Below, piece by piece: positions 3,280 through 29,050 of a stretch of DNA of 64,000 nt (positions are counted from its first letter, which is position 1; each line of letters opens with the position of its first letter). The translations under genes were made by a program, and so were the position numbers. Source of the DNA: Bolinopsis microptera (lineage: Eukaryota > Ctenophora > Tentaculata > Lobata > Bolinopsidae); contig NC_087084.1 of NCBI RefSeq assembly GCF_026151205.1, forward strand, positions 4,765,538-4,829,537. The letters are read 5' to 3'. The notes under the pieces are model-generated. The model searched no databases and was not told where the DNA came from. It was given only the letters and a program-made list of their open reading frames with translations.

Positions 3280-3284
3280 TTATT
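3279..3284 (-). promoter_or_regulatory. polyadenylation signal overlapping the stop codon
   Basis: On the minus strand AATAAA spans 3284-3279 and contains the TAA stop (3282-3280) of the precursor gene. If used, cleavage would fall some 10-30 bases downstream and the 3' UTR would be very short. The hexamer is seen; its use is inferred. Confidence 0.35.
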
Positions 3285-6200
3285 CTACTCCGAGAACACC
3301 GACAGGGCCATTCCTGCCTTTACGCGGCCTGCCCCCTCTCGTCTCTAGTTCTTCTTCTCCGAAAATACCACCTAAAATGCCATTCGCTAAATCAGCAACG
3401 GCATTTGCTCCGGTTTCAATGAAATCGGCTGCATGGTCAACGATTGTGTTCTGAAAGTGTTGAGGATTATTTGTTGTTATCACACTTTATATAACAGATT
3501 AAGATATCAAAATTATCGTATTAATCAATGAAATAACTTGAAAATATTCGTTATTACTACCCTTGCGAAATTGTTCGAGGGAGTTATTGGTGGAAAATCT
3601 CTCTATAGTTCATCAAGCGACAATGGGACCAGGCTCATGGATTTCTGTGCAGCTAATCAACTTGTTATTGGTGGAACTCTGTTTCAGCATAGAGACAACA
3701 AGGGTACATGGCGGTCTCCCAACGGGTTAACTGTTAATCAAATAGATCATATTTGTATTAATGGACGATTCCAACACTCGCTACTCAATGTTAAGGTATG
3801 TCGTGGGGCGGACATTGGTTCAGATCACTATCTTGTTCGTGGACGGCTGCAAATCAAACTGCAGCCGGTAGCTAAGATCACTGCTAAAAGGCACGATGTG
3901 CCTGCTATCGAACATTTGCGAAACTCGTCTAAGGTTCAAGAGTACAACGTGGCTCTTCAGAACCGTTTTGATTGTCTGGCTAATGAGGTCAACCTTGAGG
4001 ACATGTGGGATAATTTCAAGCAGACAGTCACTGATGTCTCGATGGAAGTGCTTGGAAAGCGTCCCCGGAAGGTTAAAGAACAAAACCTTTCGCAAACCTC
4101 TAAGAACTTGATAGAGCAAAAATAGGATTGATAGGATAAAACATGGTAATAATGTTTTGTATGATGAGAGCATTCACTTCTTAAAATCCATAAAATCATT
4201 TCCATAGATAAAATATAAAATTGGAGCCAAAGCGTGATTTGAGGGTAAATCAATTGGTTGTGCCTACTAATCTATTAATGATACCTTCTTAGTAATTTAA
4301 AAGTATAAAGGATGATGTGTGAAGCATATTAAGATCATATTGTAAGCCAGAAACCGTTCTGGTTTTACTTTTAGGACTCCTATAGATGTAATGCAATGTA
4401 ACCCTTACCGGATCTTCTTCCGGTACTGGCTTTGTCTTTCTGTTTTTTCTTGGAGCAGATTTATCTTTCCTATTTTTTCCCCTTCTCCCTCTCGTCTCTA
4501 GTTCTTCTTCTCCCAAAATACCGGGTCCCCCTCTTCGCTCTAGTTCTTCTTCTCCCAAAATACCGGGTCCCCCTCTCGTCTCTAGTTCTTCTTCTCCCAA
4601 AATACCGGGTCCCCCTCTTCGCTCTAGTTCTTCTTCTCCCAAAATACCGGGTCCCCCTCTTCGCTCTAGTTCTTCTTCTCCCAAAATACCGGGTCCCCTT
4701 CTTCGCTCTAGTTCTTCTTCTCCCAAAATACCGGGTCCCCCTCTTCGCTCTAGTTCTTCTTCTCCCAAAATACCGGGTCCCCCTCTTCGCTCTAGTTCTT
4801 CTTCTCCCATTATATAGGGATGCCCTCTTCGCTCTAGTTCTTCTTCTCCCAAAATACCGGGTCCCCCTCTTCGCTCTAGTTCTTCTTCTCCCAAAATACC
4901 GGGTCCCGCTCTTCGCTCTAGTTCTTCTTCTCCCAAAATACCGGGTCCCCCTCTTCGCTCTAGTTCTTCTTCTCCCAAAATACCGGGTCCCCCTCTTCGC
5001 TCTAGTTCTTCTTCTCCCAAAATACCGGGTCCCCCTCTTCGCTCTAGTTCTTCTTCTCCCAAAATACCGGGTCCCCCTCTTAGTGTAAAATAAGATGGCA
5101 CCAGACCAGTCCTCCCGAGGCGTACCGATGGTATACAGTGCCTGCTCACAAAGGTGTACTCACAATATACACTACTCACTCAGTCGTTGTAGCGACTGAC
5201 AACTGCAATATAACTCACAATAACTAAGTATTGAACTCTACGTTAATACGACAATCACGATAACTTGTATTGCCAATTACTCTGATATGACTACTACATA
5301 CATGCAACTAAGTGCGGTACTGTGAATCAAACGGTTCAAATGCTACAATTCGGTCCTAAGCTAGAGTTGAACAAAGGAAACAGTTGAATCGAGTAATAAC
5401 GTTCGAATGATGAATATAAAGATATTATCAACAATCACAACTTAAACTGTGGCAAGACGGGCCACGTTTGGCGTTCTAGATCAGCGGTGAACACTTTGAT
5501 TAAACACGTCACCTAAAGAGCTTTTCCAGAACTAATCCTAACGTGTCCAGAAATGCGTTATCGACACGCGCCACGTGATACCACGTGGTCACTTAACTAC
5601 CTAAATCTACACTCATTACTAACGGTCATAATAATCACTAAATTACAATCTACACAACTGCTAAAACTACTCTAAAACTGCTGCAACCAGCCTCCATATT
5701 ACACTATATCCCCCGGGAAAATTTAATCGATTTCGTCAATATCTCCAGGAGGTATTGACAAATTCGACTAAATCCCCCCCTACCTACTAAATCCTTAAAA
5801 AAATCCTAAAACTCCCTCTTAAACAACACCCTAAAAATAAAAATACCAACAAAATCCCCGTGATGCAACTCACACGAAAAAACTACCCTTGAAAAATTTA
5901 CACGTGCTACAAAAATATAAAACCTAAAAAATACGTGTACCATCACGTACCAAATCTGAATAATTAAAATTACACGTGAAATCTCACGTGACACAATACA
6001 AATAAATTATAAAAACTAACGTGATACACTTCACGTTACAAACTTCAACTATTTCAACTAAATATTTACAAAACTTGCTACCCTACTAACTGTCCTTCTC
6101 CTAAACTGTCCCTCCTACTTCCCTTACTTCTTCTGCTGTTCTGTCCAAGTCGTAGCACCGTCTACCATCCACCGTCTCTGTCCACACCACCCGTTGTTGA

Positions 6201-9200
6201 ACACGTCCTCCACAACCATACTCCTAATCCAGGTACCGTACATCTAGGCACGAACCTACACTTACACGATTATTTTCGTACACCTAGTTACGAACATAAC
6301 TTACACAATTATCTCCGTACACCTAGTCACGAACATAACTTGCATAATTATCTCCGTACACCTAGTCACGAACATAACTTGCATAATTATCTCCGTACAC
6401 CTAGTTACGAACATAACTTGCATAATTATCTCCGTACACCTAGTTACGAACGTAACTTACACAATTATCTCCGTACACCTAGTTACGAAATTCACATAAG
6501 TCACTGCAGACCGTCATATTTATAGATATGAAGTCAAATCATCTAGATTAAACCTTATCGGCACATGATAATTAAAAGTCAACTAAAGGCAAATCTAGGC
6601 ATCAGGAGCGATGCTCTACCGGATTTAAAGGTGACTCCCACTCTACACTCTACTCTACTCCACGGTTCAACAACTAACTCCACCTCTCGCAAACTCTCCA
6701 CTCTCCAGGGTAGCAAGCCCTCCTAAAAAAACACATACATCACTCAACCATATCAACCGACATTAATGACACCAGGCATACCCTAAGCACGGCCGGAGAT
6801 AAGAAATGCAACGATGACTACCTTCCACAGGTTCCAGGTAGTCTGCAAAATATGACAACAATCGTCGTATCTGCCCGAGCAACAGATAACTGGCATCCCG
6901 TGACCAGCAATCCTCTAAAACCCAAGTTTTCTCTTTACCCTCTTCAATACAGCATTAATTCTTGATACCGGTCTAAAGTAATCCGGCCTCTTTAACTGAG
7001 CTCTATTTCTTAGAGAACGTCCTCCACTGACTACAGGCGTACTCTGTTCCTCAGGTAAGTAAGCTAGTGTACTGTTACTCTCCCCCAGCTCGACAGGACT
7101 TAAACTATCCTCTATCCCGGATGTAGGTTCCTCAACCCCTCTGCTCCACCCGGGTGTGTAGAAAGATCCAAAACTTGATCCCGTCTCCTGGATCGGTGAT
7201 GAAATGTGAATCGGAGTGTTAACCCTATCTGGTGTCTGAGGGTCATGTTGGATTGAAATGTCCTGACTTTCCGTTCTGAAAGGAAGTGTATATTCCGGTG
7301 ATAGAGGTACGTCAGGAATATCAATATTCTGACTAGACAAGGTACTCTCTTGAACCACAAAACTCCCTCTCTCCACTTGCTCAGGCATCCACAACTCCTC
7401 GTCACTACTGCTATCACTATCCCCACTATCACTTCTCACCGTGTCTCTCATTATCTCATTCTTCCAGCCATGTGCTCCATCACCGATTACTATCTCGCTC
7501 CCACTACTACACACTTTGTTGTTCTCTCCCATACCGCACATGACGTTATCTACGTCACTAATCACACCAAAACTATTCTCAGAGGATTCACTAACGGAAT
7601 AAGCGTTGTGATCACGTGTAATATTACTAGAGGATTCACTAACGGCTGAAGCGTTGTGATCACGTGTAACATTAATGAAGGATTCACTAACGGCTGAAGC
7701 GTTGTGATCACGTGTAACATTACTGAAGGATTCACTAACGGCTGAAGCGTTGTGATCACGTGTAACATTAATGAAGGATTCACTAACGGCTGAAGCGTTG
7801 TGATCACGTGTAACATTACTGAAGGATTCACTAACGGCTGAAGCGTTGTGATCACGTGTAACATTACTGAAGGATTCACTAACGGCTGAAGCGTTGTGAT
7901 CACGTGTAACATTACTGAAGGATTCACTAACGGATGAAGCGTTATAATCACATTCTACGTTACTAATACTATCTAACTCACTAATGGCTGAAGCGTTGTG
8001 ACTCAGAATGGTATTGACACCCGCAGACCTGGTAAACTCCTCTCCTCCCGATCTCTCATCTAGAATGACCTCTGTCTGGCACGATGCTTCCGCAAAACTC
8101 CTTCTGAATGGAACTCTGCTTCGTCTGTCCTCCTCAGCATTAGACTTTGTCGCCTTTATCATGTTCAGCCCGTGACTCTCCAACAACTCATTCTGAGTCC
8201 ATCTTTCACCACAGAACTTTTCTGCCTGACCCCTGTTCTCCTGAGCTTGTCTATCAATCGCAGTCCCTCTAACACCGATATCTTGACCTCTGATCCTCTG
8301 CACGCCGTGTATAAATTTCTTACCGCCTACAGGTTTCAATAGTGCGACGATCTTGTTTTTGCGGATCGTTATTTGCTCATCAGTAGAGTTAACACACTTT
8401 ATCGGGACCAATATTTTATCAGAGTGCACAACTGCATGAGCGAATGAAATGCCCGTGTCCCCAATACCTTGCTTGTACTGTGGCTTAATCACACCTTTAA
8501 AATTCACTCCTTTCGCCTGTAACTTTCCCCTGATGTACTGCACCGTGTTAGGAGGAATAATTGTGACCTTGCTACATCTAACTTTTATCTGCTGCTTGAC
8601 ATTCTCCGGCTTCTCCGTGAATGGTACACTATCTCCATTAGTCAGCACCAGTCTGCACTTGCTGTAGTCCAGAGTTACCCTATTTTACCTCAAGAAATCA
8701 TCTCCAATCAGGAATTCTGTGTCTAACAGATCAGTTACCACGAAGGTGTGTACAAATCTATTGCCAGCAACTACCACCTGTAGTTCTAACTCTCCCCTGA
8801 TTTGTATCTTGTCTTGAGAAAATGACTTCAATTTTTTTTTATTTGAAAATTCAATTAATTATTATATATATAAATCAAGCGTTACATTTCAGCCATGCAA
8901 AATTACAATGACATATTTTGATATACTAATTGATAAATGGAACTGCAATATAAGTTGCTTAATGTTTGGCCGGATGACAACTAACTAAAAGAGAAAAATA
9001 AACTTGATTACATAATAATTAATTCGGCTGAACCAACACATAGCAAGAGCCACATTAACGTTGGGGCCGTCTAAAATGTCATGTCACATGGTCGGATCCC
9101 GCTCTCTAGTCTCAGTCCTCTCAAAAAACCCGTGGACACAATACTCACAGCCGACCCGCTGTCAACAAAAAGGTAGGCTGCCACTCCTCTGCAACTCCCA

Positions 9201-12200
9201 GCCACCAAGATGTGTTTCCAGTTCACCGCATTCACCTCCTTCTGCTTCCCAGATGATTTTAATTGCGACTGATGGGAAATGAATTTTGTCCAGTCGCACG
9301 CCCGTTTAAATGGTCTCTCTGCATTCCATGCTGTTCAGTCTCTGTGGGTCTGTACTGCCTACCTCGTCCTCCAGATCGCCCTCTGTCGACGTTGCAGAAT
9401 CTTTGAATGTGACCCTCACCGTGACAATTATAACAGATCAACGGCCTGCGACTCTCTCCTCTACTCGCATCTCTACTCGCACCTCTACTCGCCCCTCTAC
9501 TCACCTCTCTGCTACTCTGCTCAACCGGACTCACTCTACTCCTGCAAACACTGGCAACATGCCCTTTACCTTCACACAGCTGGCACACTATATTGCTCCA
9601 ACACGAGTCAGCCTTGTGACCTTTCTTCCCACACATCTGACAGTCATTCTCATCCTTTTCTCTCTCACCTTGCCTGCCAACACCGTAAGTAGGTGTCGAG
9701 AATTCCAGTTTTGTCATCGGATCACTGTCCATATCTCCCTCTAATGCCTTGGATATGTGCTCCTCCTGTACAGCTAACCGGATCACGCTATCAAAATTCC
9801 TTGTCTCCGTGTTCATCTGAAGGAGCCGTCTCTTGATCGCAGGGTCTCTCACGCCCTGTATCAACACAGTGATACCTGCACTCTCTCTCTCCACAGCTCT
9901 CGGGTAGATCTTCTCAGCAGTGTCCTGTATTCTCTCTGCGAACTGCTCCACGCTCTCTAACGCTTCCTGTCTCATCTTGTGAAACGTTGTTCTCGTAATT
10001 CTCGCATCAGTAGCGGGATATAGCTCTCGTTTCACCGCACTGATCAGCATTTTCACGTCACCTCTCTCCTCACTCAACAGCCGAATGTTCTTGACTTTCT
10101 TGAACTTTGCATCGTCTTCTATCTGATTTGCAAGCCTCAAGTCTAGATTGTCCTTTACTCCGCATAACAGGACCCACTGCTCGAATCTCTGCAGAAATGT
10201 ACAGAAGTCATCATTTTTCCTGTACCTCGGCGCCTTACATTTCATCGTGTACTCTCCCTTATCTCTCTCTGTATTTCCGGGTTGCAAATCACCCCTCACA
10301 GTTGTTCTCGCTATTTCTTGCAACACGTTGCTTGTTTTCTCCATCTTTACATCTCGTTCCCTCATCAATTCCTCTCGCTCAAGTTCTGCTTCCTCTCTCC
10401 ACTTGATCATATCTCTCTCCAACTCTCTCACTCTGTTCAGACACTCCTCTCTCTTCTCGCTCAAATCAAACAACTCCACTTTGCTCTCTTTTATCTCCGT
10501 CTCTTTATCACTTGTGTCCCAAGACTTCATTTCCAATCTCACCTCCACAATCTGATCCACAATCCGTTTTTCCTCCTCTACTAGTTCCTTCATCTCCTGC
10601 TCCATGTTTGTGAGTCCAGACATAGTACCACTTTCCTAGGTTCTCCAGATAGTGTAAAATAAGATGGCACCAGACCAGTCCTCCCGAGGCGTACCGATGG
10701 TATACAGTGCCTGCTCACAAAGGTGTACTCACAATATACACTACTCACTCAGTCGTTGTAGCGACTGACAACTGCAATAACTCACAATAACTAAGTATTG
10801 AACTCTACGTTAATACGACAATCACGATAACTTGTATTGCCAATTACTCTGATATGACTACTACATACATGCAACTAAGTGCGGTACTGTGAATCAAACG
10901 GTTCAAATGCTACAATTCGGTCCTAAGCTAGAGTTGAACAAAGGAAACAGTTGAATCGAGTAATAACGTTCGAATGATGAATATAAAGATATTATCAACA
11001 ATCACAACTTAAACTGTGGCAAGACGGGCCACGTTTGGCGTTCTAGATCAGCGGTTAACACTTTGATTAAACACGTCACCTAAAGAGCTTTTCCAGAACT
11101 AATCCTAACGTGTCCAGAAATGCGTTATCGACACGCGCCACGTGATACCACGTGGTCACTTAACTACCTAAAACTACACTCATTACTAACGGTCATAATA
11201 ATCACTAAATTACAATCTACACAACTGCTAAAACTACTCTAAAACTGCTGCAACCAGCCTCCATATTACACTACTCTTCGCTCTAGTTCTTCTTCTCCCA
11301 AAATACCGGGTCCCCCTCTTCGCTCTAGTTCTTCTTCTCCCAAAATACCGGGTCCCCCTCTTCGCTCTAGTTCTTCTTCTCCCAAAATACCGGGTCCCCC
11401 TCTTCGCTCTAGTTCTTCTTCTCCCAAAATACCGGGTCCCCCTCTTCGCTCTAGTTCTTCTTCTCCCAAAATACCGGGTCCCCCTCTTCGCTCTAGTTCT
11501 TCTTCTCCCAAAATACCGGGTCCCCCTCTTCGCTCTAGTTCTTCTTCTCCCAAAATACCGGGTCCCCCTCTTCGCTCTAGTTCTTCTTCTCCCAAAATAC
11601 CGGGTCCCCCTCTTCGCTCTAGTTCTTCTTCTCCCAAAATACCGGGTCCCCCTCTTCGCTCTAGTTCTTCTTCTCCCAAAATACCGGGTCCCCCTCTTCG
11701 CTCTAGTTCTTCTTCTCCCAAAATACCGGGTCCCCCTCTTCGCTCTAGTTCTTCTTCTCCCAAAATACCGGGTCCCCCTCTTCGCTCTAGTTCTTCTTCT
11801 CCCAAAATACCGGGTCCCCCTCTTCGCTCTAGTTCTTCTTCTCCCAAAATACCGGGTCCCCCTCTTCGCTCTAGTTCTTCTTCTCCCAAAATACCGGGTC
11901 CCCCTCTTCGCTCTAGTTCTTCTTCTCCCAAAATACCGGGTCCCCCTCTTCGCTCTAGTTCTTCTTCTCCCAAAATACCGGGTCCCCCTCTTCGCTCTAG
12001 TTCTTCTTCTCCCAAAATACCGGGTCCCCCTCTTCGCTCTAGTTCTTCTTCTCCCAAAATACCGGGTCCCCCTCTTCGCTCTAGTTCTTCTTCTCCCAAA
12101 ATACCGGGTCCCCCTCTTCGCTCTAGTTCTTCTTCTCCCAAAATACCGGGTCCCCCTCTTCGCTCTAGTTCTTCTTCTCCCAAAATACCGGGTCCCCCTC

Positions 12201-12956
12201 TTCGCTCTAGTTCTTCTTCTCCCAAAATACCGGGTCCCCCTCTTCGCTCTAGTTCTTCTTCTCCCAAAATACCGGGTCCCCCTCTTCGCTCTAGTTCTTC
12301 TTCTCCCAAAATACCGGGTCCCCCTCTTCGCTCTAGTTCTTCTTCTCCCAAAATACCGGGTCCCCCTCTCGTCTCTAAAAGGGATGCTACTTCCGCCTGA
12401 AAAAATCAACGATCAAAGTTGATAAAAATCGTGAAGATAGCAATATTTAGTCATTTTAACAATCTTCCATCAATTTGGCCGTATCCCCACGTGTGCAACT
12501 TTTTTATTTTCAACTGTTAAACTAATTTAGTGTTGAACAGATGATAAAGTTTATTTTAATTTGAAACTCTTACCTCTTTCTTTACTAGTTTTACATTTGC
12601 CACGTTTTCGGGGTCTGCTACTTCCGTCTGAAAAAATTAACGATCATTAACATTATGCCAAGCTGTATGTCGGATTCGGGATGTGTCTCTTTTTTAGATC
12701 TTGACTAATTTCTAAAATAAACTCCATGTAAGATTAAAAACTTTATAGCAATTATAATAAAATATAACTCAAAACTAACGAAGATACCGATAATGAATCG
12801 AAAAATAAAGTTGATATCACTCTGTTTTCGTTTTTTTTTGTTGAAATAAAATCATAAACTGGTTTAAACTCTCACCTCACTGTTGAGGCTCCTGGCTGTG
12901 CCAGGAGCAAACAGGGCCACAAAGAAAGTGAGGAGCACTACTGTAGTTACAGCCAT
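3280..12956 (-). CDS. secreted multi-copy repeat (peptide-precursor-like) gene, interrupted by an LTR element
   Basis: Four exons, all joined by phase-0 GT-AG introns. Exon 1 (12956-12876) encodes 27 residues with a clear signal peptide: MAVTTVVLLTFF, then VALFAPGTA and likely cleavage before RS. Exon 2 (12627-12574) encodes 18 residues. Exon 3 (12396-4409) carries about 41 units of 14 residues, consensus GGPGILGEEELERR, then a Lys/Arg-rich segment ending PVPEEDP before the donor GTAAGG. Exon 4 (3450-3280) encodes 56 residues including one degenerate unit (GGIFGEEELETRGG). Exon 3 contains the LTR element 5082-11273; without it and one 5-bp target duplication the exon is 1791 bp, in frame, giving about 698 residues in all. 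With it, translation stops at 11266-11268 just inside the LTR, after about 26 units. Signal peptide, identical units and dibasic spacers resemble neuropeptide or other multi-copy secreted precursors. I recognise no named family; a repetitive structural or defence protein is possible. Confidence 0.75.
3586..4125 (+). pseudogene. LINE apurinic-endonuclease fragment in the last intron of the precursor gene
   Basis: An open plus-strand frame of about 180 codons matches the C-terminal part of the endonuclease domain of non-LTR retrotransposons. The pattern RLMDFCAANQLVIGGTLF is followed by GTWRSPNG, NQIDHICINGR and GSDHYLVRG. The SDH motif contains a catalytic histidine of the exonuclease/endonuclease/phosphatase fold. 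The upstream half of the endonuclease and the whole reverse transcriptase are missing, and the frame stops at 4123-4125. It lies antisense inside the intron 3451-4408, so it is a dead fragment. The exact clade cannot be fixed from this piece. Confidence 0.8.
4500..5081 (-). repeat. 42-bp minisatellite, 3' block (15 units, variable)
   Basis: Fifteen 42-bp units encode the 14-residue repeat on the minus strand. Here the units vary: one reads GHPYIMGEEELE, others begin AG or RG instead of GG, and two end ETR instead of ERR. Because 42 is divisible by three, several frames on both strands stay open. The block ends at the LTR insertion, with target duplication CTCTT at 5077-5081. Confidence 0.95.
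5082..5706 (-). repeat. 3' LTR of the retrotransposon
   Basis: 625 bp, near-identical to 10651-11273. It contains the CACGTG-type motifs CCACGTGATACCACGTGG near 5571-5588. It is the 3' LTR because the element is read on the minus strand. Confidence 0.92.
5707..6914 (-). other. non-coding 3' region of the LTR element, with ACGTG motif cluster
   Basis: Between the tail ORF and the 3' LTR I find no coding frame. At 5870-6050 the core ACGTG or its complement recurs at least eight times. A 39-bp minisatellite follows at 6236-6489. Just inside the LTR the minus strand reads CCCGGGGGATA, a weak candidate polypurine tract. Confidence 0.5.
6236..6489. repeat. 39-bp minisatellite inside the LTR element
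   Basis: About 6.5 copies of a 39-bp unit starting CCGTACACCTAGT and containing ACGAACATAACTT. Units differ at a few positions (TTACGAAC or TCACGAAC, TTACACAA or TTGCATAA). Confidence 0.9.
6915..8648 (-). CDS. post-protease linker fused to Pol C-terminal tail, with 16-residue repeats
   Basis: The frame is open for 577 codons and begins right after the protease remnant. It runs further upstream in the same frame to an in-frame TAA at 8687-8685, so the listed start is only a frame limit. Residues 1-110 or so (IIPPNTVQYIRG, LVPIKCVNSTDEQ, IRKNKIVALLKPV) resemble the segment between protease and RT in Ty3-like Pol. Residues 230-370 or so hold about eight copies of a 16-residue unit (DHNASAVSESFSNVTR). 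The last 40 residues (RSLRNRAQLKRPDYF, then a basic end) resemble the C-terminal end of Pol after integrase. The RT, RNase H and integrase cores are absent, so this looks like an internal-deletion product. Confidence 0.7.
   Translation of the reverse strand: MLTNGDSVPFTEKPENVKQQIKVRCSKVTIIPPNTVQYIRGKLQAKGVNFKGVIKPQYKQGIGDTGISFAHAVVHSDKILVPIKCVNSTDEQITIRKNKIVALLKPVGGKKFIHGVQRIRGQDIGVRGTAIDRQAQENRGQAEKFCGERWTQNELLESHGLNMIKATKSNAEEDRRSRVPFRRSFAEASCQTEVILDERSGGEEFTRSAGVNTILSHNASAISELDSISNVECDYNASSVSESFSNVTRDHNASAVSESFSNVTRDHNASAVSESFSNVTRDHNASAVSESFINVTRDHNASAVSESFSNVTRDHNASAVSESFINVTRDHNASAVSESSSNITRDHNAYSVSESSENSFGVISDVDNVMCGMGENNKVCSSGSEIVIGDGAHGWKNEIMRDTVRSDSGDSDSSSDEELWMPEQVERGSFVVQESTLSSQNIDIPDVPLSPEYTLPFRTESQDISIQHDPQTPDRVNTPIHISSPIQETGSSFGSFYTPGWSRGVEEPTSGIEDSLSPVELGESNSTLAYLPEEQSTPVVSGGRSLRNRAQLKRPDYFRPVSRINAVLKRVKRKLGF
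7575..7965 (-). repeat. 48-bp tandem repeat in the tail ORF
   Basis: About eight 48-bp units encode the 16-residue repeat. Each unit contains GATCACGTGTAACATTA. Most units differ by one or two bases, for example SFSNVTR versus SFINVTR. Confidence 0.92.
8685..9260 (-). pseudogene. retropepsin (protease) of the LTR element, disrupted
   Basis: The N-terminal part reads VAAYLFVDSGSAVSIVS, with the catalytic DSG codons at about 9163-9155. The C-terminal part, at about 8830-8688, includes FVVTDLLDTEFLIGDDFLR, the usual end of a retroviral-type aspartic protease. A non-homologous stretch of about 227 bp (8832-9058) separates the halves; its length modulo 3 explains the frame difference. An in-frame TAA follows FLR at 8687-8685. 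The N-terminal half is in the -1 frame relative to gag, as expected for a frameshift-expressed Gag-Pro. It cannot be functional as it stands. Confidence 0.8.
8832..9058 (-). mobile_element. short insertion splitting the protease
   Basis: About 227 bp with no similarity to the element. On the minus strand it ends in a run of nine A next to the resumption of protease sequence, which suggests a short retroposed (SINE-like) insertion. A target duplication is not clear and the borders are approximate. Confidence 0.45.
9259..10623 (-). CDS. gag: Gag polyprotein of the LTR element
   Basis: 454 residues, intact from ATG (MSGLTNMEQ) to stop. Residues about 5-105 are Glu/Lys/Arg-rich with long heptad-like stretches, a probable coiled coil. 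Residues about 130-300 resemble a retrotransposon capsid domain (FCTFLQRFEQWVL, MRQEALESVEQFAERI). Three CCHC zinc knuckles follow: CQMCGKKGHKADSC, CQLCEGKGHVASVC and CYNCHGEGHIQRFC, the last two separated by Ser/Arg-rich spacers. Gag assembles the particle and the knuckles bind RNA. It starts about 28 bp inside the 5' LTR (10651-11273). An intact Gag in an element without RT is notable. Confidence 0.9.
   Translation of the reverse strand: MSGLTNMEQEMKELVEEEKRIVDQIVEVRLEMKSWDTSDKETEIKESKVELFDLSEKREECLNRVRELERDMIKWREEAELEREELMRERDVKMEKTSNVLQEIARTTVRGDLQPGNTERDKGEYTMKCKAPRYRKNDDFCTFLQRFEQWVLLCGVKDNLDLRLANQIEDDAKFKKVKNIRLLSEERGDVKMLISAVKRELYPATDARITRTTFHKMRQEALESVEQFAERIQDTAEKIYPRAVERESAGITVLIQGVRDPAIKRRLLQMNTETRNFDSVIRLAVQEEHISKALEGDMDSDPMTKLEFSTPTYGVGRQGEREKDENDCQMCGKKGHKADSCWSNIVCQLCEGKGHVASVCRSRVSPVEQSSREVSRGASRGASRDASRGESRRPLICYNCHGEGHIQRFCNVDRGRSGGRGRQYRPTETEQHGMQRDHLNGRATGQNSFPISRN
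10630..10647 (-). promoter_or_regulatory. candidate tRNA primer-binding site
   Basis: Three bases inside the 5' LTR the minus strand reads TGGAGAACCTAGG. It has the TGG start and the place of a primer-binding site, but I could not match it to a particular tRNA. Confidence 0.3.
10651..11273 (-). repeat. 5' LTR of the retrotransposon
   Basis: 623 bp. Relative to the other LTR it has GTTAAC for GTGAAC, AAAACT for AAATCT, and a 2-bp deletion near 10777. These few changes date the insertion as recent. Confidence 0.92.
11274..12366 (-). repeat. 42-bp minisatellite, 5' block (about 26 near-identical units)
   Basis: About 26 units with almost no variation by eye, in contrast to the variable 15-unit block on the other side of the LTR element. 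On the minus strand each encodes GGPGILGEEELERR. The first unit is preceded by ETR and lies 30 bp inside the exon. Confidence 0.96.
12574..12627 (-). CDS. exon 2 of the precursor gene
   Basis: 54 bp, 18 residues (TEVADPENVANVKLVKKE), bounded by TTTTTTCAG and GTAAGAG. Its first codons and upstream acceptor (TTTTTTCAG, then A/GCGGAAGTAGCA) closely match the start of exon 3 (12396), as though one exon start had been duplicated. Confidence 0.75.
12876..12956 (-). CDS. exon 1 of the precursor gene (signal peptide)
   Basis: 27 codons from the ATG at 12956-12954 to the donor GTGAGAG. A hydrophobic core VVLLTFFVALF is followed by APGTA, a good signal-peptidase site. The protein is therefore expected in the secretory pathway. 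Confidence 0.78.
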
Positions 12957-13546
12957 GACTGCTGAATTACATGTTTAGTTCATTATTTGGTCAGCTTTGC
13001 CGTTTTGCCCCGATTTTAACCTTTTAATTTTAAAAAGTACTCGAGCAAGTTAAATACTCGTATGTTTTTTATTTTATAAATTTATGTGACACCGTTTAAA
13101 CGCCTATAAATGTTTCAAAGCTCGGCTTACTAAAACTAGTCCATCGTTATTCATCGGATTCAGGGCTTTAAAAATGTTAAAGTGATTAACCTTTATCAAA
13201 AGCAAATTGGTCACGTTAACGCAACTAGTGAACTTGACGTCGGGCACGGTATTCTACGAATTAAAAGAATTATTTTCTCCGTCTGTTAGTATTTTCACAG
13301 CGTCAAATTTCTTTTTTGTAATCGGAAAACGTATTTTCGAAAATAGAAAATATCACGATATTATTATGATATTATTCCAAAACAGATTTTTGGTCGCCTG
13401 TGAAACCGAATCGCCCACAAGTACACCATGCAGGATTGTATTTTCTATAAATGGGCAAACATACGCTGAGAGATCATGAAATTGCAGCACAAGAGTTTGA
13501 AATTGAATTAATAAGTACAAAATATAAAAAAACTGCAAAGGATGTT
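12957..13546 (-). promoter_or_regulatory. presumed promoter region of the precursor gene
   Basis: On the minus strand TATAAAA lies at 13078-13072, about 115 bases upstream of the ATG, a plausible TATA box. The rest is AT-rich and borders the satellite array. Short open frames here on both strands look random. Confidence 0.35.
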
Positions 13547-14863
13547 CAAAAATGTTGCCAAGTTGTAACGTTACAACTTGTTGCCAGGATGGTTGAGCGA
13601 GTACTGACTTACTGAGCAGTTGTAAGCTCTAAACTGCTCGCAGCATACTCTAAACAGACACTTCTTCATGATGCCTAAGATTGCAGATTCTCATGATGAT
13701 CATTGATCATGAACTTTCCCCTATTCGCACACCGAATGGGTGTATAAACACATGATTATATAGATCACTCAATTCTTTTTGCTTATATGCAGTACATGTA
13801 TATTGAAAATTACACGATGGAGTGCCCGGTACGTTGTTTTGTGACCTCAACAACTTGAGGGGGAAACATGGTTATTGTCCTTCTTACATAGTTATTCAAC
13901 GGTTTTTACTAAATCCTCGTAATTCTTCGCATCATTTTGATTTATTAACATCAATTCTCAAATTATTTGTTATATAGTAGTGTTGAAAGTACTAAATATA
14001 TATATAAGTGACTAGGCGAGTGGGCGGGCCGCAGCACTTTTTTTGTCGGAACCTATCTACAGTAACAACTATCTGTTTGGTCTACTGAGAAACCTTGTTT
14101 ACTGTAGTTATGCTATTTTTGTAAAACAACGTACTAAAATAATGTTTTTGCATGGTGTCTAACAATGTAAGTGTAATCGGTACACTGGGTACAGTTCAGC
14201 AAATAACACAGAGGGGAGTCCCCCGGTTTCAGTTATATGGCTATAATTGTCCTGCCTGAGTTGTGAGCAGGACATGAAAGGAGATAAAATTAAACTTGGT
14301 CGGATTTTTAAAAATGTTGTACCATAAAATTTGTTATACTTATTTGGAATGATCAGTGAGTTCCGTCATAGTGCCATATTTAATGATGCGCGGATTTTGG
14401 AGCCAAAACAGCAGCTAATTTGAGAATTAACTTAATGTCTGATGATTGGATATGCTCCAAATTTTTCGGAAAGCTTCTTTTTAAGTGCTCAAAGGTGTCC
14501 ACAAATTTTGCCTAGTTGTTACGTTACAACTTGGTGCCTGGATGGTTGAGCGTGTACTGACTTACTGAGTAGTTGTAAGCTCTAAACTGCTCGCAGCATA
14601 CTTTGAACAGACACTTCTTCGTGATGCCTAAGATTGCAGATTCTCATGATGATGAACATTCCCTTATTCGCACACCGAATGGGTGTATAAACACATGATT
14701 ATATAGATCACTCAATTCTTTTTGCTTTTATGGAGTACATGTATATTGAAAATTACACGATAGAGTGCCCGGTACGTTGTTTTGTGACCTCAACAACTTG
14801 AGGGGGAAACATGGTTATTGTCCTTCTTAAGCCCTTTGTATCATTTAGAAGACATAGTTATTC

Positions 14864-15289
14864 GGCGGAGTCTAAAAAGTGACTACCCGACTCACCATGA
14901 TTATCGCTCATAGAACATATTATATCAATGACTTGCATTCAATTTTTTTAAATATTGATCCCATTAACTTCTTCAATACACAGGACTTAATACGTCCACA
15001 AGATAAAAACGTACCTTTAAAAAATGAAGACTGGATATCCACGCCCACCCTCAATAAAGAAGAAAAGAAGAACACCCAACATACAGGAACACTCTTCGGT
15101 CCCTCCTTTACTATCTTTATACTTTTATTATGGTTACTATTTTTCCATATTGTTATTTTTATACCCAGTCGGCTCAGTGTGTTTTGGTTCGGGCCTTGCT
15201 TGCTGGCCCTGCCATGGCTCTCTAGCTTAGGCAGGTTTGACTTATACATATATATATTTCATTGCTGAACTTCTACACAATAAAAAAAA
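14864..15289 (+). mobile_element. retro-insert copy 1 in the satellite
   Basis: A 426-bp segment is present only in long units. It interrupts the sequence that elsewhere forms the right arm of the hairpin (GACATAGTTATTC, then GTTTTGACT). It ends CACAATAAAAAAAA, a polyadenylation-signal and poly(A) pattern, so it looks like a 5'-truncated retroposed sequence. It holds an ORF from the ATG at 14897 to 15268 (123 residues) with one hydrophobic stretch (FTIFILLLWLLFFHIVIFI). I do not recognise the protein; it may be the 3' end of a non-LTR or Penelope-type element. Confidence 0.6.
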
Positions 15290-16322
15290 CTGTTTTGACT
15301 TTTGACTAGATCCTCGTAATTCTTCGCATCATTTATTAACATCAATTCTCAAATTATTTGTTATATAGTAGTGTTGAAAGTATTAAATATATATATAAGT
15401 GACTTGGCGAGTGGGCGGGCCACAGCACTTTTTTTTGTCGGAACCTATCTACAGTAACAACTGTCTGTTTGGTCTACTAAGAAACCTTGAGGTAGATTCA
15501 TAAGCACTCAACAACTATGATGACGAAGTATCTCGCTGTCCTGCCTGTCAAAGAACTTACTGTAGTTATGTTATCTTTGTAAAACAACGTACTAAAATAA
15601 TGTTTTTGCATGGTGTCTAACAATGTAAGTGTAATCGGTACACTGGGTACAGTTCAGCAAATAACACAGAGGGGAGTCCCCCGGTTTCATTAATATGGCT
15701 ATAATTGTCCTGCCTGAGTTGTGAGCAGGACATGAAAGGAGATAAAATTAAACTTGGTCGGATTTTTAAAAATGTTGTACCATAAAATTTGTTATACTTA
15801 TTTGGAATGATCAGTGAGTTCCGTCATAGTGCCATATTTAATGATGCGCGGATTTTGGAGCCAAAACAGCAGCTAATATGAGAATTAACTTAATGTCTGA
15901 TGATTGGATATGCTCCAAATTTTTCGGAAAGCTTCTTTTTAAGTGCTCAAAGGTGTCCAAAAATGTTGCCTAGTTGTTACGTTACAACTTGGTGCCTGGA
16001 TGATTGAGCGTAAGTACTGACTTACTGAGTAGTTTAAGCTCTAAACTGCTCGCAGCATACTCTAAACAGACACTTCTTCATGATGCCTAAGATTGCAGAT
16101 TCTCATGATGATGAACGTTCCAGTATTTGCACACCGAATGGGTGTATAAACACATGATTATATAGATCACTCAATTCTTTTTGCTTTTATGGAGTACATG
16201 TATATTGAAAATTACACGATAGAGTGCCCGGTACGTTGTTTTGTGACCTCAACAACTTGAGGGGGAAACATGGTTATTGTCCTTCTTAAGCCCTTTGTAT
16301 CATTTAGAAGACATAGTTATTC

Positions 16323-16746
16323 GGCGGAGTCTAAAAAGTGACTACCCGACTCACCATGATTATCGCTCATAGAACATATTATATCAATGACTTGCATTCA
16401 ATTTTTTTAAATATTGATCCCATTAACTTCTTCAATACACAGGACTTAATACGTCCACAAGATAAAAACGTACCTTTAAAAAATGAAGACTGGATATCCA
16501 CGCCCACCCTCAATAAAGAAGAAAAGAAGAACACCCAACATACAGGAACACTCTTCGGTCCCTCCTTTACTATCTTTATACTTTTATTATGGTTACTATT
16601 TTTCCATATTGTTATTTTTATACCCAGTCGGCTCAGTGTGTTTTGGTTCGGGCCTTGCTTGCTGGCCCTGCCATGGCTCTCTAGCTTAGGCAGGTTTGAC
16701 TTATACATATATATATTTCATTGCTGAACTTCTACACAATAAAAAA
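16323..16746 (+). mobile_element. retro-insert copy 2 in the satellite
   Basis: Same segment as at 14864, with a shorter A tail. The encoded ORF is identical in sequence to copy 1. It was amplified with the unit, not inserted again. Confidence 0.6.
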
Positions 16747-17779
16747 GCTGTTTTGACTTTTGACTAGATCCTCGTAATTCTTCGCATCATTTATTAACAT
16801 CAATTCTCAAATTATTTGTTATATAGTAGTGTTGAAAGTATTAAATATATATATAAGTGACTTGGCGAGTGGGCGGGCCACAGCACTTTTTTTTGTCGGA
16901 ACCTATCTACAGTAACAACTGTCTGTTTGGTCTACTAAGAAACCTTGAGGTAGATTCATAAGCACTCAACAACTATGATGACGAAGTATCTCGCTGTCCT
17001 GCCTGTCAAAGAACTTACTGTAGTTATGTTATCTTTGTAAAACAACGTACTAAAATAATGTTTTTGCATGGTGTCTAACAATGTAAGTGTAATCGGTACA
17101 CTGGGTACAGTTCAGCAAATAACACAGAGGGGAGTCCCCCGGTTTCATTAATATGGCTATAATTGTCCTGCCTGAGTTGTGAGCAGGACATGAAAGGAGA
17201 TAAAATTAAACTTGGTCGGATTTTTAAAAATGTTGTACCATAAAATTTGTTATACTTATTTGGAATGATCAGTGAGTTCCGTCATAGTGCCATATTTAAT
17301 GATGCGCGGATTTTGGAGCCAAAACAGCAGCTAATATGAGAATTAACTTAATGTCTGATGATTGGATATGCTCCAAATTTTTCGGAAAGCTTCTTTTTAA
17401 ATGCTCAAAGGTGTCCAAAAATGTTGCCTAGTTGTAACGTTACAACTTGGTGCCTGGATGGTTGAGGGTGTACTGACTTACTGAGTAGTTGTAAGCTCTA
17501 AACTGCTCGCAGCATACTTTGAACAGACACTTCTTCGTGATGCCTAAGATTGCAGATTCTCATGATGATGAACATTCCCTTATTCGCACACCGAATGGGT
17601 GTATAAACACATCATTATATAGATCACTCAATTCTTTTTGCTTTTATGGAGTACATGTATATTGAAAATTACACGATAGAGTGCCCGGTACGTTGTTTTG
17701 TGACCTCAACAACTTGAGGGGGAAACATGGTTATTGTCCTTCTTAAGCCCTTTGTATCATTTAGAAGACATAGTTATTC

Positions 17780-18206
17780 GGCGGAGTCTAAAAAGTGACT
17801 ACCCGACTCACCATGATTATCGCTCATAGAACATATTATATCAATGACTTGCATTCAATTTTTTTAAATATTGATCCCATTAACTTCTTCAATACACAGG
17901 ACTTAATACGTCCACAAGATAAAAACGTACCTTTAAAAAATGAAGACTGGATATCCACGCCCACCCTCAATAAAGAAGAAAAGAAGAACACCCAACATAC
18001 AGGAACACTCTTCGGTCCCTCCTTTACTATCTTTATACTTTTATTATGGTTACTATTTTTCCATATTGTTATTTTTATACCCAGTCGGCTCAGTGTGTTT
18101 TGGTTCGGGCCTTGCTTGCTGGCCCTGCCATGGCTCTCTAGCTTAGGCAGGTTTGACTTATACATATATATATTTCATTGCTGAACTTCTACACAATAAA
18201 AAAAAC
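17780..18206 (+). mobile_element. retro-insert copy 3 in the satellite
   Basis: Same segment and ORF, at the same position in the unit as the other copies. Confidence 0.6.
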
Positions 18207-19212
18207 TGTTTTGACTTTTGACTAGATCCTCGTAATTCTTCGCATCATTTATTAACATCAATTCTCAAATTATTTGTTATATAGTAGTGTTGAAAGTATT
18301 AAATATATATATAAGTGACTTGGCGAGTGGGCGGGCCACAGCACTTTTTTTTGTCGGAACCTATCTACAGTAACAACTGTCTGTTTGGTCTACTAAGAAA
18401 CCTTGAGGTAGATTCATAAGCACTCAACAACTATGATGACGAAATATCTCTCTGTCCTGCCTGTCAAAGAATTTACTGCAGTTATGCTATCTTTGTAAAA
18501 CAACGTACTAAAATAATGTTTTTGCATGGTGTCTAACAATGTAAGTGTAATCGGTACACTGGGTACAGTTCAGCAAATAACACTGAGGGGAGTCCCCCGG
18601 TTTCAGTTATATGGCTATAATTGTCCTGCCTGAGTTGTGAGTAGGACATGAAAGGAGATAAAATTAAACTTGGTCGTATTTTTAAAAATGTTGTACCATA
18701 AAATTTGTTATACTTATTTGGAATGATCAGTGAGTTCCGTCATAATGCCATATTTAATGATGCGCGGTTTTTGGAGCCAAAACAGCAGCTAATTTGAGCA
18801 TTAACTTAATGTCTGATGATTGGATATGCTCCAAATTTTTCGGAAAGCTTCTTTTTAAGTGCTCAAAGGTGTCCAAAAATGTTGCCTAGTTGTAACGTTA
18901 CAACTTGGTGCCTGGATGGTTGAGGGTGTACTGACTTACTGAGTAGTTGTAAGCTCTAAACTGCTCGCAGCATACTTTGAACAGACACTTCTTCATGATG
19001 CCTAAGATTGCAGATTCTCATGATGATGAACGTTCCAGTATTTGCACACCGAATGGGTGTATAAACACATGATTATATAGATCACTCAATTCTTTTTGCT
19101 TTTATGGAGTACATTTATATTGAAAATTACACGATAGAGTGCCCGGTACGTTGTTTTGTGACCTCAACAACTTGAGGGGGAAACATGGTTATTGTCCTTC
19201 TTAAGCCCTATT

Positions 19213-19290
19213 CAAAACCGTTGAATAACTATGTCTACTAAATGATACATAGATGTATCATTTAGTAGACATAGTTATTCAACGGTTTTG
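19213..19290. repeat. 78-bp perfect hairpin in a short unit
   Basis: Arms of 36 nt (CAAAACCGTTGAATAACT at the outer end, perfectly mirrored) surround the six-base loop ATAGAT. The same hairpin recurs at 21745-21822 and 23863-23940. Confidence 0.93.
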
Positions 19291-20312
19291 ACTAAATCCT
19301 CGTAATTCTTCGCATCATTTTGATTTATCAACATCAATTCTCAAATTATTTGTTATATAGTAGTGTTGAAAGTATTAAATATATATATAAGTGACTAGGC
19401 GAGAGGGCGGGCCGCAGCACTCTTGTTGTCGGAACCTATCTACAGTAACAACTATCTGTTTGGTCTACTAAGAAACCTTGAGGTAGATTCATAAGCACTC
19501 AACAACTATGATGACGAAATATCTCTCTGTCCTGCCTGTCAAAGAATTTACTGCAGTTATGCTATCTTTGTAAAACAACGTACTAAAATAATGTTTTTGC
19601 ATGGTGTCTAACAATGTAAGTGTAATCGGTACACTGGGTACAGTTCAGCAAATAACACTGAGGGGAGTCCCCCGGTTTCAGTTATATGGCTATAATTGTC
19701 CTGCCTGAGTTGTGAGTAGGACATGAAAGGAGATAAAATTAAACTTGGTCGTATTTTTAAAAATGTTGTACCATAAAATTTGTTATACTTATTTGGAATG
19801 ATCAGTGAGTTCCGTCATAATGCCATATTTAATGATGCGCGGTTTTTGGAGCCAAAACAGCAGCTAATTTGAGCATTAACTTAATGTCTGATGATTGGAT
19901 ATGCTCCAAATTTTTCGGAAAGCTTCTTTTTAAATGCTCAAAGGTGTCCAAAAATGTTGCCTAGTTGTAACGTTACAACTTGGTGCCTGGATGGTTGAGG
20001 GTGTACTGACTTACTGAGTAGTTGTAAGCTCTAAACTGCTCGCAGCATACTTTGAACAGACACTTCTTCATGATGCCTAAGATTGCAGATTCTCATGATG
20101 ATGAACGTTCCAGTATTTGCACACCGAATGGGTGTATAAACACATGATTATATAGATCACTCAATTCTTTTTGCTTTTATGGAGTACATTTATATTGAAA
20201 ATTACACGATAGAGTGCCCGGTACGTTGTTTTGTGACCTCAACAACTTGAGGGGGAAACATGGTTATTGTCCTTCTTAAGCCCTTTGTATCATTTAGAAG
20301 ACATAGTTATTC

Positions 20313-20736
20313 GGCGGAGTCTAAAAAGTGACTACCCGACTCACCATGATTATCGCTCATAGAACATATTATATCAATGACTTGCATTCAATTTTTTTAA
20401 ATATTGATCCCATTAACTTCTTCAATACACAGGACTTAATACGTCCACAAGATAAAAACGTACCTTTAAAAAATGAAGACTGGATATCCACGCCCACCCT
20501 CAATAAAGAAGAAAAGAAGAACACCCAACATACAGGAACACTCTTCGGTCCCTCCTTTACTATCTTTATACTTTTATTATGGTTACTATTTTTCCATATT
20601 GTTATTTTTATACCCAGTCGGCTCAGTGTGTTTTGGTTCGGGCCTTGCTTGCTGGCCCTGCCATGGCTCTCTAGCTTAGGCAGGTTTGACTTATACATAT
20701 ATATATTTCATTGCTGAACTTCTACACAATAAAAAA
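20313..20736 (+). mobile_element. retro-insert copy 4 in the satellite
   Basis: Same segment and ORF as the three others, in a long unit lying between two short units. Confidence 0.6.
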
Positions 20737-21744
20737 GCTGTTTTGACTTTTGACTAGATCCTCGTAATTCTTCGCATCATTTATTAACATCAATTCTCAA
20801 ATTATTTGTTATATAGTAGTGTTGAAAGTATTAAATATATATATAAGTGACTTGGCGAGTGGGCGGGCCACAGCACTTTTTTTTGTCGGAACCTATCTAC
20901 AGTAACAACTGTCTGTTTGGTCTACTAAAAAACCTTAAGGTAGATTCATAAGCACTCAACAACTATGATGACGAAGTATCTCGCTGTCCTGCCTGTCAAA
21001 GAATTTACTGTAGTTATGCTATCTTTGTAAAACAAGGTACTAAAATAATGTTTTTGCATGGTGTCTAACAATGTAAGTGTAATCGGTACACTGGGTACAG
21101 TTCAGCAAATAACACTGAGGGGAGTCCCCCGGTTTCAGTTATATGGCTATAATTGTCCTGCCTGAGTTGTGAGTAGGACATGAAAGGAGATAAAATTAAA
21201 CTTGGTCGTATTTTTAAAAATGTTGTACCATAAAATTTGTTATACTTATTTGGAATGATCAGTGAGTTCCGTCATAATGCCATATTTAATGATGCGCGGT
21301 TTTTGGAGCCAAAACAGCAGCTAATTTGAGCATTAACTTAATGTCTGATGATTGGATATGCTCCAAATTTTTCGGAAAGCTTCTTTTTAAATGCTCAAAA
21401 GTGTCCAAAAATGTTGCCTAGTTGTAACGTTACAACTTGGTGCCTGGATGGTTGAGGGTGTACTGACTTACTGAGTAGTTGTAAGCTCTAAACTGCTCGC
21501 AGCATACTTTGAACAGACACTTCTTCATGATGCCTAAGATTGCAGATTCTCATGATGATGAACTTTCTCGTATACGCACACCGAATGGGTGTATAAACAC
21601 ATGATTATATAGATCACTCAATTCTTTTTGCTTTTATGGAGTACATGTATATTGAAAATTACACGATAGAGTGCCCGGTACGTTGTTTTGTGACCTCAAC
21701 AACTTGAGGGGGAAACATGGTTATTGTCCTTCTTAAGCCCTATT

Positions 21745-21822
21745 CAAAACCGTTGAATAACTATGTCTACTAAATGATACATAGATGTATCATTTAGTAG
21801 ACATAGTTATTCAACGGTTTTG
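21745..21822. repeat. 78-bp perfect hairpin, second copy
   Basis: Identical to 19213-19290 by eye. Confidence 0.93.
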
Positions 21823-23862
21823 ACTAAATCCTCGTAATTCTTCGCATCATTTTGATTTATCAACATCAATTCTCAAATTATTTGTTATATAGTAGTGTTG
21901 AAAGTATTAAATATATATATAAGTGACTAGGCGAGAGGGCGGGCCGCAGCACTCTTGTTGTCGGAACCTATCTACAGTAACAACTATCTGTTTGGTCTAC
22001 TAAGAAACCTTGAGGTAGATTCATAAGCACTCAACAACTATGATGACGAAATATCTCTCTGTCCTGCCTGTCAAAGAATTTACTGCAGTTATGCTATCTT
22101 TGTAAAACAACGTACTGAAATAATGTTTTTGCATGGTGTCTAACAATGTAAGTGTAATCGGTACACTGGGTACAGTTCAGCAAATAACACAGAGGGGAGT
22201 CCCCCGGTTTCAGTTATATGGCTATAATTGTCCTGCCTGAGTTGTGAGTAGGACATGAAAGGAGATAAAATTAAACTTGGTCGGATTTTTAAAAATGTTG
22301 TACCATAAAATTTGTTATACTTATTTGGAATGATCAGTGAGTTCCGTCATAGTGCCATATTTAATGATGCGCGGATTTTGGAGCCAGAAAAGCAGCTAAT
22401 TTGAGAATTAACTTAATGTCTGATGATTGGATATGCTCCAAATTTTTCGGAAAGCTTCTTTTTAAATGCTCAAAAGTGTCCAAAAATGTTGCCTAGTTGT
22501 AACGTTACAACTTGGTGCCTGGATGGTTGAGGGTGTACTGACTTACTGAGTAGTTGTAAGCTCTAAACTGCTCGCAGCATACTTTGAACAGACACTTCTT
22601 CATGATGCCTAAGATTGCAGATTCTCATGATGATGAACTTTCTCGTATACGCACACCGAATGGGTGTATAAACACATGATTATATAGATCACTCAATTCT
22701 TTTTGCTTTTATGGAGTACATGTATATTGAAAATTACACGATAGAGTGCCCGGTACGTTGTTTTGTGACCTCAACAACTTGAGGGGGAAACATGGTTATT
22801 GTCCTTCTTGAGCCCTATGTATCATTTAGTAGACATACTCATAGTTAAAGTTATTCAACAGTTTTTACTAAATCCTCGTAATTCTTCGCATCATTTTGAT
22901 TTATTAACATCAATTCTCAAATTATTTGTTATATAGTAGTGTTGAAAGTATTAAATATATATATAAGTGACTAGGCGAGTGGGCGGGCCGCAGCACTTTT
23001 TTGTCGGAACCTATCTACAGTAACAACTGTCTGTTTGGTCTACTAAAAAACCTTAAGGTAGATTCATAAGCACTCAACAACTATGATGACGAAATATCTC
23101 TCTGTCCTGCCTGTCAAAGAATTTACTGTAGTTATGCTATCTTTGTAAAACAACGTACTAAAATAATGTTTTTGCATGGTGTCTAACAATGTAAGTGTTA
23201 TCGATACACTGGGTACAGTTCAGCAAATAACACTGAGGGGAGTCCCCCGGTTTCAGTTATATGGCTATAATTGTCCTGCCTGAGTTGTGAGTAGGACATG
23301 AAAGGAGATAAAATTAAACTTGGTCGGATTTTTAAAAATGTTGTACCATAAAATTTGTTATACTTATTTGGAATGATCAGTGAGTTCCGTCATAATGCCA
23401 TATTTAATGATGCGCGGTTTTTGGAGCCAAAACAGCAGCTAATTTGAGCATTAACTTAATGTCTGATGATTGGATATGCTCCAAATTTTTCGGAAAGCTT
23501 CTTTTTAAATGCTCAAAAGTGTCCAAAAATGTTGCCTAGTTGTAACGTTACAACTTGGTGCCTGGATGGTTGAGGGTGTACTGACTTACTGAGTAGTTGT
23601 AAGCTCTAAACTGCTCGCAGCATACTTTGAACAGACACTTCTTCATGATGCCTAAGATTGCAGATTCTCATGATGATGAACGTTCCAGTATTTGCACACC
23701 GAATGGGTGTATAAACACATGATTATATAGATCACTCAATTCTTTTTGCTTTTATGGAGTACATTTATATTGAAAATTACACGATAGAGTGCCCGGTACG
23801 TTGTTTTGTGACCTCAACAACTTGAGGGGGAAACATGGTTATTGTCCTTCTTAAGCCCTATT

Positions 23863-23940
23863 CAAAACCGTTGAATAACTATGTCTACTAAATGATACAT
23901 AGATGTATCATTTAGTAGACATAGTTATTCAACGGTTTTG
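23863..23940. repeat. 78-bp perfect hairpin, third copy
   Basis: Identical to 19213-19290 by eye. Confidence 0.93.
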
Positions 23941-27620: not shown

Positions 27621-28117
27621 GTGCAAGATGTTCAGCTCGACAAAATACTGGTGCAAAATATTTCTTAGGCCCTGCAATGACTCATCCAGATTGTGTCTTC
27701 AAGAGCAGGAACTTAGCTGCTAAATCGTCGAAAGAAAAGATAAATGCCTAATAAAATACAGCTTTTAACGGTTATGGTTTGTATTATATATTGGAACAGC
27801 ACTGCATAGCCATATGTCTTAGAACTTTAGTATAATTTTATGAAGCGTAAAAAAATCAACTGGAGACTGTTCCAATTCATCATGGTGTCCGTCTCAGAGT
27901 TTCACTTGAAGCGTGGGTATATATTATTTTTGGGTATATTTATTTTTTTCTGTATACACGATCACTCATCAAAAGTATTAATTGCACGTTACCTATTATA
28001 CTTTGGACTTTTGGGCGAAAAATTATTCTAGTTCGACACTTATGACTTAGGCTATAATTCAACAACTAAAGTTCGCCATTAATCACCCCTTTCGAACTTC
28101 AGCTATATAACAGAAGT

Positions 28118-28855: not shown

Positions 28856-28862
28856 TAAACTT

Positions 28863-29050
28863 ACTACTACTACTACTACTACTATGTCGGAGCTAAGTCC
28901 GATCTACGCCAGAAAACCCCCTCCATATATCCCTGTCCCGCATCAGGGTTCGCAGTTCCTCTTTAGAGTTTGTCCCAACTTCCTTCAGTAACATAGACAA
29001 GTAGCTTTGTCTTGGTCGGCCTTGCTGTGCTCTACCGTGCGTAGGTTCCC
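28863..29050 (-). pseudogene. 3' end of a LINE (RT C-terminus plus triplet tail)
   Basis: The minus strand encodes GRPRQSYLSMLLKEVG, then RTLMRDRDIWRGF and a stop at 28895-28893. This resembles the last residues of many LINE polyproteins (GRPR, then DRDxWR). After the stop, an AGT-triplet tail runs to 28863, a microsatellite end seen in several LINE clades. Everything upstream is missing, so this is a 5'-truncated insertion sitting inside the Mutator-like element. Confidence 0.65.

Follow-up and report, generated by a model that had tools for sequence, protein, structure and literature searches.

A retrotransposon-split tandem array in a candidate secreted multi-peptide precursor gene of Bolinopsis microptera

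The stretch analysed here, which we call the window, comprises 64,000 nucleotides of contig NC_087084.1 of the ctenophore Bolinopsis microptera (assembly GCF_026151205.1, positions 4,765,538 to 4,829,537). On its minus strand lies a gene of four exons that appears to encode a secreted precursor of many short peptides, and whose repeat array is interrupted by a long terminal repeat (LTR) retrotransposon. The features are listed below in window coordinates, the gene in its own reading direction and then the inserted element.

12876..12956, minus strand: exon 1, signal-like leader MAVTTVVLLTFFVALFAPGTARSLNSE, donor GTGAG
12574..12627, minus strand: exon 2, spacer TEVADPENVANVKLVKKE, phase 0; a similar exon occurs in paralogues
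12367..12396, minus strand: start of exon 3, AEVASLLETR
11275..12366, minus strand: array part 1, 26 units of GGPGILGEEELERR
4490..5077, minus strand: array part 2, 14 units, including AGPGIL, GHPYIM and RGPGIL variants and two ETR ends
4409..4489, minus strand: basic tail of exon 3, GRRGKNRKDKSAPRKNRKTKPVPEEDP, donor GTAAGG; a similar tail occurs in paralogue unit exons
3280..3450, minus strand: exon 4, terminal unit NTIVDHAADFIETGANAVADLANGILGGIFGEEELETRGGRPRKGRNGPVGVLGVE, with stop
5081..11273, no strand assigned: LTR retrotransposon inserted in the array, 6,193 bp, long open reading frames (ORFs) on the minus strand
5081..5706, no strand assigned: LTR, lower-coordinate copy
10650..11273, no strand assigned: LTR, higher-coordinate copy; the frame from array part 1 stops here, at 11266
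9259..10635, minus strand: gag-like ORF of the retrotransposon; zinc-knuckle matches weak, below the Pfam cut-off

An earlier note on this DNA had proposed the same four exon pieces in phase 0, and these pieces are borne out on the minus strand: the borders are GT-AG and every exon is in phase 0. The exon 1 leader is hydrophobic with a small-residue end, as judged by eye, and is kept in the leader copies described below. The first residues of exon 3 and its acceptor resemble those of exon 2, its basic tail ends PVPEEDP, and exon 4 gives a 56-residue terminal unit followed by a stop. Because four of the six frames of array part 1 are free of stops, ORF length is no evidence for the frame; the frame was chosen from the splice sites and from paralogues and homologues that read in a matching one.

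The array is a tandem repeat with a 42-bp unit inside a single exon. All 26 units of part 1 are identical in DNA to the reference unit, as are 9 of the 14 in part 2. The earlier count of about 41 units was fair: exon 3 holds 26 + 14 = 40, and exon 4 adds a related GEEELETRG segment, the array core and exon 4 (GGTATTTTCGGAGAAGAAGAACTAGAG) having 26 of 27 aligned bases in common. The units end in RR in 38 of 40 cases and in TR in the other 2, which makes them short repeats parted by dibasic sites. GEEELE(R/T)R is kept in all 40, each time with a Gly right before the acidic run, and the 12-mer carries a net charge of -4. Nine substitutions fall outside the RR/TR site among the 40 units, all of them in the first 16 bases (the GGPGIL part), and the two ETR units have 6 further changed bases at the site itself.

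That the array forms one continuous repeat exon, as the earlier note had it, did not hold up: the note had read straight across the element at 5081-11273, which splits the array into 26 units and 14 units. The two LTRs align with 622 identities and 2 mismatches over 624 bases plus one 2-bp insertion or deletion. They start TAGTG and finish CACTA, and the element is flanked by a target duplication, CTCT, at 5077-5080 and 11274-11277. Used as a query, the LTR finds at least 54 matching places genome-wide, counting the window's own two (a lower bound, as 40 of 123 candidates were scored), and the best outside the window is 98% identical. Paired LTRs, a target duplication and other genomic copies identify an LTR retrotransposon, and no reverse-transcriptase match turned up in the three ORFs of the element that were scanned. 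The interior of the element has tandem repeats of its own, at 7583-7951 (48-bp unit, within an open frame) and at 6236-6489 (39-bp unit).

The frame entering from the signal side ends ...ELERRVV* within the LTR, two codons past unit 26. Because of this stop, the assembled copy would consist of the leader and 26 units and would be without the basic tail and the terminal unit, unless splicing removes the element. It is possible, though we lean against it, that this copy is non-functional or has a wrong copy number, being a dead gene or in part an artefact of assembly; that would be compatible with its membership in the family described below. Besides the stop in the LTR, the way in which the genome was assembled speaks for this: the available text of PMC10232365 describes wtdbg assembly, gap closing with TGS-Gapcloser and polishing with Illumina reads. 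So does the second copy of the gene, which is rich in errors past its first units. On the other hand, the paired LTRs and the clean target duplication look like a true insertion rather than a mis-join, and the leader with 26 units is still translatable.

The second copy lies on C11 of the same genome and has no retrotransposon. Its signal exon (C11:19860664) encodes a protein sequence identical to that of the window, the first ten residues of its exon 3 are the same, and its array, from C11:19861225 on, comprises 87.3 copies according to Tandem Repeats Finder. Six blocks upstream of about 12.47 kb each show 0-1 mismatch per 300 columns between the two copies. The array of the second copy and the part downstream of it are rich in insertions and deletions, and past about the tenth unit each unit shows on average 1-2 substitutions and about two inserted or deleted bases. 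We infer that this noisy stretch results from raw-read gap filling of either a very recent duplicate or the other haplotype; the second copy could be the other haplotype placed wrongly.

The gene has further relatives, again chiefly on C11. The signal exon has 6 genome matches, its own included, of which 5 are on C11, and exon 4 has 9, of which 8 are there. For C11:6650559-6662873 we derived nine exons, all in phase 0: a leader and a spacer, then six unit exons with tails, and at the end a terminal exon. These agree with isoform X2 of the uncharacterised RefSeq gene LOC134822633 (protein P0004) over the leader, the spacer and the 6 unit exons, with 98% identity over 96% of the query. LOC134822633 shares with the window gene the leader, spacer, phase-0 plan, GEEELETRG and tail ending PVPEEDP; it differs in that its exons hold a single unit each, of up to ~68 residues, and no array. 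The neighbouring gene at C11:6671288-6682074, LOC134822634 (P0001), also uncharacterised in RefSeq, has the same leader and spacer and a terminal REELETRG segment, but only a single unit, other middle exons and R rather than G before the acidic run. The annotated extent of P0004 (C11:6650559-6695333) is greater than ours, since its isoform X2 ends at an exon at C11:6695229, ~32 kb past the derived terminal exon and beyond LOC134822634.

Two sets of features define the family, and the window gene shows both: a leader MAVTT...GTA with a spacer TEVAD...LVKKE, and a unit exon in phase 0 that carries GEEELETRG and a basic tail ending PVPEEDP, found here in exon 4 and in the tail of exon 3. A spacer-like exon is also present in the RefSeq proteins P0001, P0004 and P0006; P0005, a homologue from JGI, has only the signal part. 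The units of the LOC134822633 paralogue end GEEELETRGRR, and the border after GEEELE reads ETRGRR in all 5 instances in P0004. Two further proteins, P0002 and P0003 (ENA), are single units and were used only in alignments. In the canonical unit the acidic segments have charges of -6 and -10 and the basic tail +13; the segment is amphipathic, with a maximum moment of 0.54 (no control run).

Frog-skin and cone-snail peptide families combine a shared leader with differing mature parts, and the present genes might likewise encode defence or venom-like secreted peptides. At L042 and at C11:6174722 (LOC134822628), leader exons resembling ours stand before an unrelated Cys-rich protein whose C-terminal end is hydrophobic. 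The leader thus looks like a cassette put to repeated use, as this explanation would have it, and the amphipathic segment fits it as well. Yet the segments are acidic (-4, -6 and -10, leaving out the basic tail of +13 as a product), not cationic and amphipathic like an antimicrobial peptide, and no Pfam match rises above its cut-off; we consider a defence role quite unlikely.

Searches among named families agree with the earlier note, which had recognised a signal-like leader and dibasic spacing and could name no family. Array part 1, array part 2 and exon 4 matched 0 Pfam families at E <= 0.1, the window contains nothing from Rfam at gathering thresholds, and all Pfam and NCBIfam matches of the family's relatives are below curated cut-offs. 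The strongest by E-value, NCBIfam Rv1535 with P0004, scored 27.2 bits against a cut-off of 62, and the sole match of a PDB sequence search had E 3.5; we find neither convincing. A lichen-fungus protein, P0008 (27% identity), was taken as low-complexity noise, and weak array matches on C10, C6, C2 and C8 encode an unrelated repeat, the one on C10 being a minisatellite with a 42-bp unit. EEELETRG as a search term had no literature match, and the family is named in none of the listed titles and abstract openings of papers on ctenophore neuropeptides (those of Bolinopsis and Mnemiopsis among them), Mnemiopsis colloblasts and ctenophore antimicrobial peptides.

A likeness to the array outside these genes is seen in P0005, encoded on a 1202-bp contig. 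Its signal sequence is followed by TQYGEEELEKREYARLFGEEELETRGKR, a basic tail and long units; the two short units with which it opens are QYGEEELEKR and EYARLFGEEELETRGKR. Because the units read unbroken, as in a spliced transcript, P0005 is probably complementary DNA (cDNA). Its short units carry GEEELEKR and GEEELETRGKR, and, like the array of the window gene, they form the first unit-bearing segment behind the leader and run into a like tail. Two of its five complete GEEELE borders read EKR and the other three ETR, so a dibasic pair occurs at this border in two lineages. The differences are that P0005 has 2 short units where the window gene has 40, and long units rich in DTLLDAAADIIG. The earlier expectation of a related gene with an equal exon plan holds in part: P0004 matches the derived paralogue exons, and P0005 shares the signal and two short units, one ending in KR, but is without the TEVAD spacer.

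An alternative that must be weighed against these borders is that the protein is structural, mucous or adhesive, with a Gly/Pro- and Glu/Arg-rich array that stays uncut and forms a polymer or a charge-balanced secretory matrix. Extracellular structural proteins often contain Gly-Pro repeats that unequal crossing-over has homogenised, and canonical units, in which an acidic segment (-6) alternates with a basic tail (+13), would suit such a role. An AlphaFold model of P0005 shows no fold (mean predicted local distance difference test score, pLDDT, 37.1), as this alternative would predict, but a model built on a two-row alignment says little for or against. Basic pairs (RR, KR, GRR) that recur at unit borders in two lineages speak against an uncut array. 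Moreover, candidate proteins of Mnemiopsis colloblasts are not enriched for low-complexity regions, as far as the available text of PMC6278862 states. A structural role appears unlikely.

Our preferred interpretation, to which we assign a probability of roughly 0.6, is that the window gene belongs to a small family of secreted multi-peptide precursors, so far found in B. microptera and a few other sources. Members share a leader, made of the signal exon and usually a short spacer exon, followed by phase-0 exons. The canonical exon encodes one acidic segment of ~30-35 residues, then -G-EEELE-TR-G-(R/K)R and a low-complexity tail that is strongly basic. The 42-bp tandem array of the window copy would have arisen by amplification, within one exon, of the C-terminal piece of such a unit (GIFGEEELETRGG to GILGEEELERRGG), the border ETR turning into the dibasic ERR. 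Because the border became dibasic, cutting at basic pairs would free one short peptide dozens of times per precursor. The precursor would enter the secretory pathway, dibasic enzymes would cut at RR, and a carboxypeptidase would presumably trim the arginines, leaving GGPGILGEEELE as a free acid of 1198.5717 Da. An allele with the LTR insertion, which cuts the array, would encode the leader and 26 units and then stop. The analysis establishes the exons, the array, the insertion, the family and the RefSeq models of relatives; secretion, cleavage and the identity of the product are predictions from sequence, and a gene working like a multi-copy peptide precursor is the best reading of the locus.

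Such an organisation has parallels. Cnidarian multi-copy precursors such as Antho-RFamide contain many short copies with acidic and basic spacers, in which Gly is followed by a basic residue. The ctenophore neuropeptide precursors of Hayakawa et al. 2022 (VWYa, NPWa, FGLa, RWFa, WTGa, NVFa/NIFa and others) are, in the available description, likewise secreted, with basic and acidic sites and Gly as amide donor; the likeness is one of description only. A product that is not amidated also has a parallel, as PMC12440616 mentions a non-amidated Hydra peptide with a reported role in contraction.

Several observations count against the precursor interpretation. The assembled copy is truncated by the retrotransposon insertion. 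Identical DNA repeats can spread without selection, and a single unit (GHPYIM) accounts for 7 of the 9 substitutions in the peptide part, which may go back to one event. A G-to-C change at one base recurs 36 times in the second copy and produces GQEELERR, within the supposedly constant part; it is also present in the first two units, which lie within the clean stretch, and looks real. A direct cut after GEEELE is not a family rule, because the border is ETR in the Bolinopsis proteins P0001 and P0004. Finally, a RefSeq protein corresponding to the 26-copy piece was not found, none of the 7,995 candidates scored (about 205-653 amino acids) matching it at E <= 1.

Within the precursor interpretation, the product may differ from the non-amidated dodecapeptide that the earlier note had inferred. 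Dibasic cutting followed by removal of EEELE would expose the Gly to amidation by PAM, yielding GGPGIL-NH2 (511.3118 Da) and, once, GHPYIM-NH2; canonical units processed in this way would give peptides ending -IF, -LF or -VL-amide. The Gly before the acidic run, constant among the 40 window units, recurs in 14 of 15 occurrences in P0001-P0005, and F, L or Y precedes it in 13 of those 14. In an alignment of 11 unit rows (A2), G-E-E are the only invariant columns. That alignment, however, omits the unit of P0001, which has R for Gly; in a 7-row alignment that includes P0001, the invariant columns are E-LETRG and Gly is lost from them. The Gly occurrences are also related rather than independent, and many units of the second copy read G-Q-E. 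Gly followed by a basic pair occurs at the last unit (ETRGRR) and at the 5 P0004 borders and is absent from the internal array units (ERRGG), unless acidic trimming takes place.

The processing machinery bears on the same question. According to the available text of PMC9525235, precursors of B. mikado are cut at basic and acidic sites, acidic residues being reported as major cleavage sites, and the known peptides of that species include FGLa, RWFa, NVFa/NIFa and GVFa; peptidergic cells of Mnemiopsis express carboxypeptidases and PAM. That same text contains no statement that acidic sites are used on the C-terminal side after Gly. GGPGIL-amide is a serious rival product because the Gly is kept and acidic cleavage is reported in B. 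mikado (PMC9525235), although on balance we find it a doubtful one. Computed monoisotopic masses for other candidate products are 1197.5877 for GGPGILGQEELE, 972.5756 for LANGILGGIF-amide and 901.5385 for VANGILGIF-amide.

A wider scheme, tentative and rather unlikely as a whole, would have one leader cassette serve two routes of multiplying peptides: duplicated exons with one peptide each, or minisatellite growth that puts dozens into an exon. Dibasic cutting, acidic trimming and amidation would then yield -IF, -LF and -IL-amides, with GGPGIL-amide at 40 to ~87 copies; alleles would differ in copy number, and the retrotransposon would switch the gene to a truncated form. Ctenophores are a leading candidate for the sister group of all other animals. 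Their peptide systems are therefore relevant to whether nervous systems had a single or a double origin. A precursor family amplified within an exon offers defined masses to seek in existing peptidomes. It also illustrates a possible growth route of a multi-copy precursor, in which the border between copies turns dibasic as the array expands. The retrotransposon insertion provides a natural truncated copy that can be compared with an uninterrupted one.

The surrounding DNA is itself rich in repeats. The last intron of the gene contains an ORF fragment (3532-4125) resembling a piece of a long interspersed nuclear element (LINE) endonuclease, and sequence of this intron recurs between the unit exons of the C11 paralogue. 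A macrosatellite at 13536-25834, with shifts of about 1.07 and 1.46 kb, includes copies of DNA that is found upstream of the gene as well (13536-14097), and DNA related to it occurs in both orientations near the second copy on C11. At 28117-31454, ~3.3 kb with nearly perfect inverted arms (402 nt at 100%, 326 nt at 98%) resembles a fold-back transposon. An ORF at 403-1389 encodes a GIY-YIG domain (Pfam E 5.4e-8), which we take to be perhaps a remnant of a Penelope-like retroelement, and an open frame of 496 amino acids at 32190-33680 has an MFS_1 match at E 2.7e-5, below the curated cut-off.

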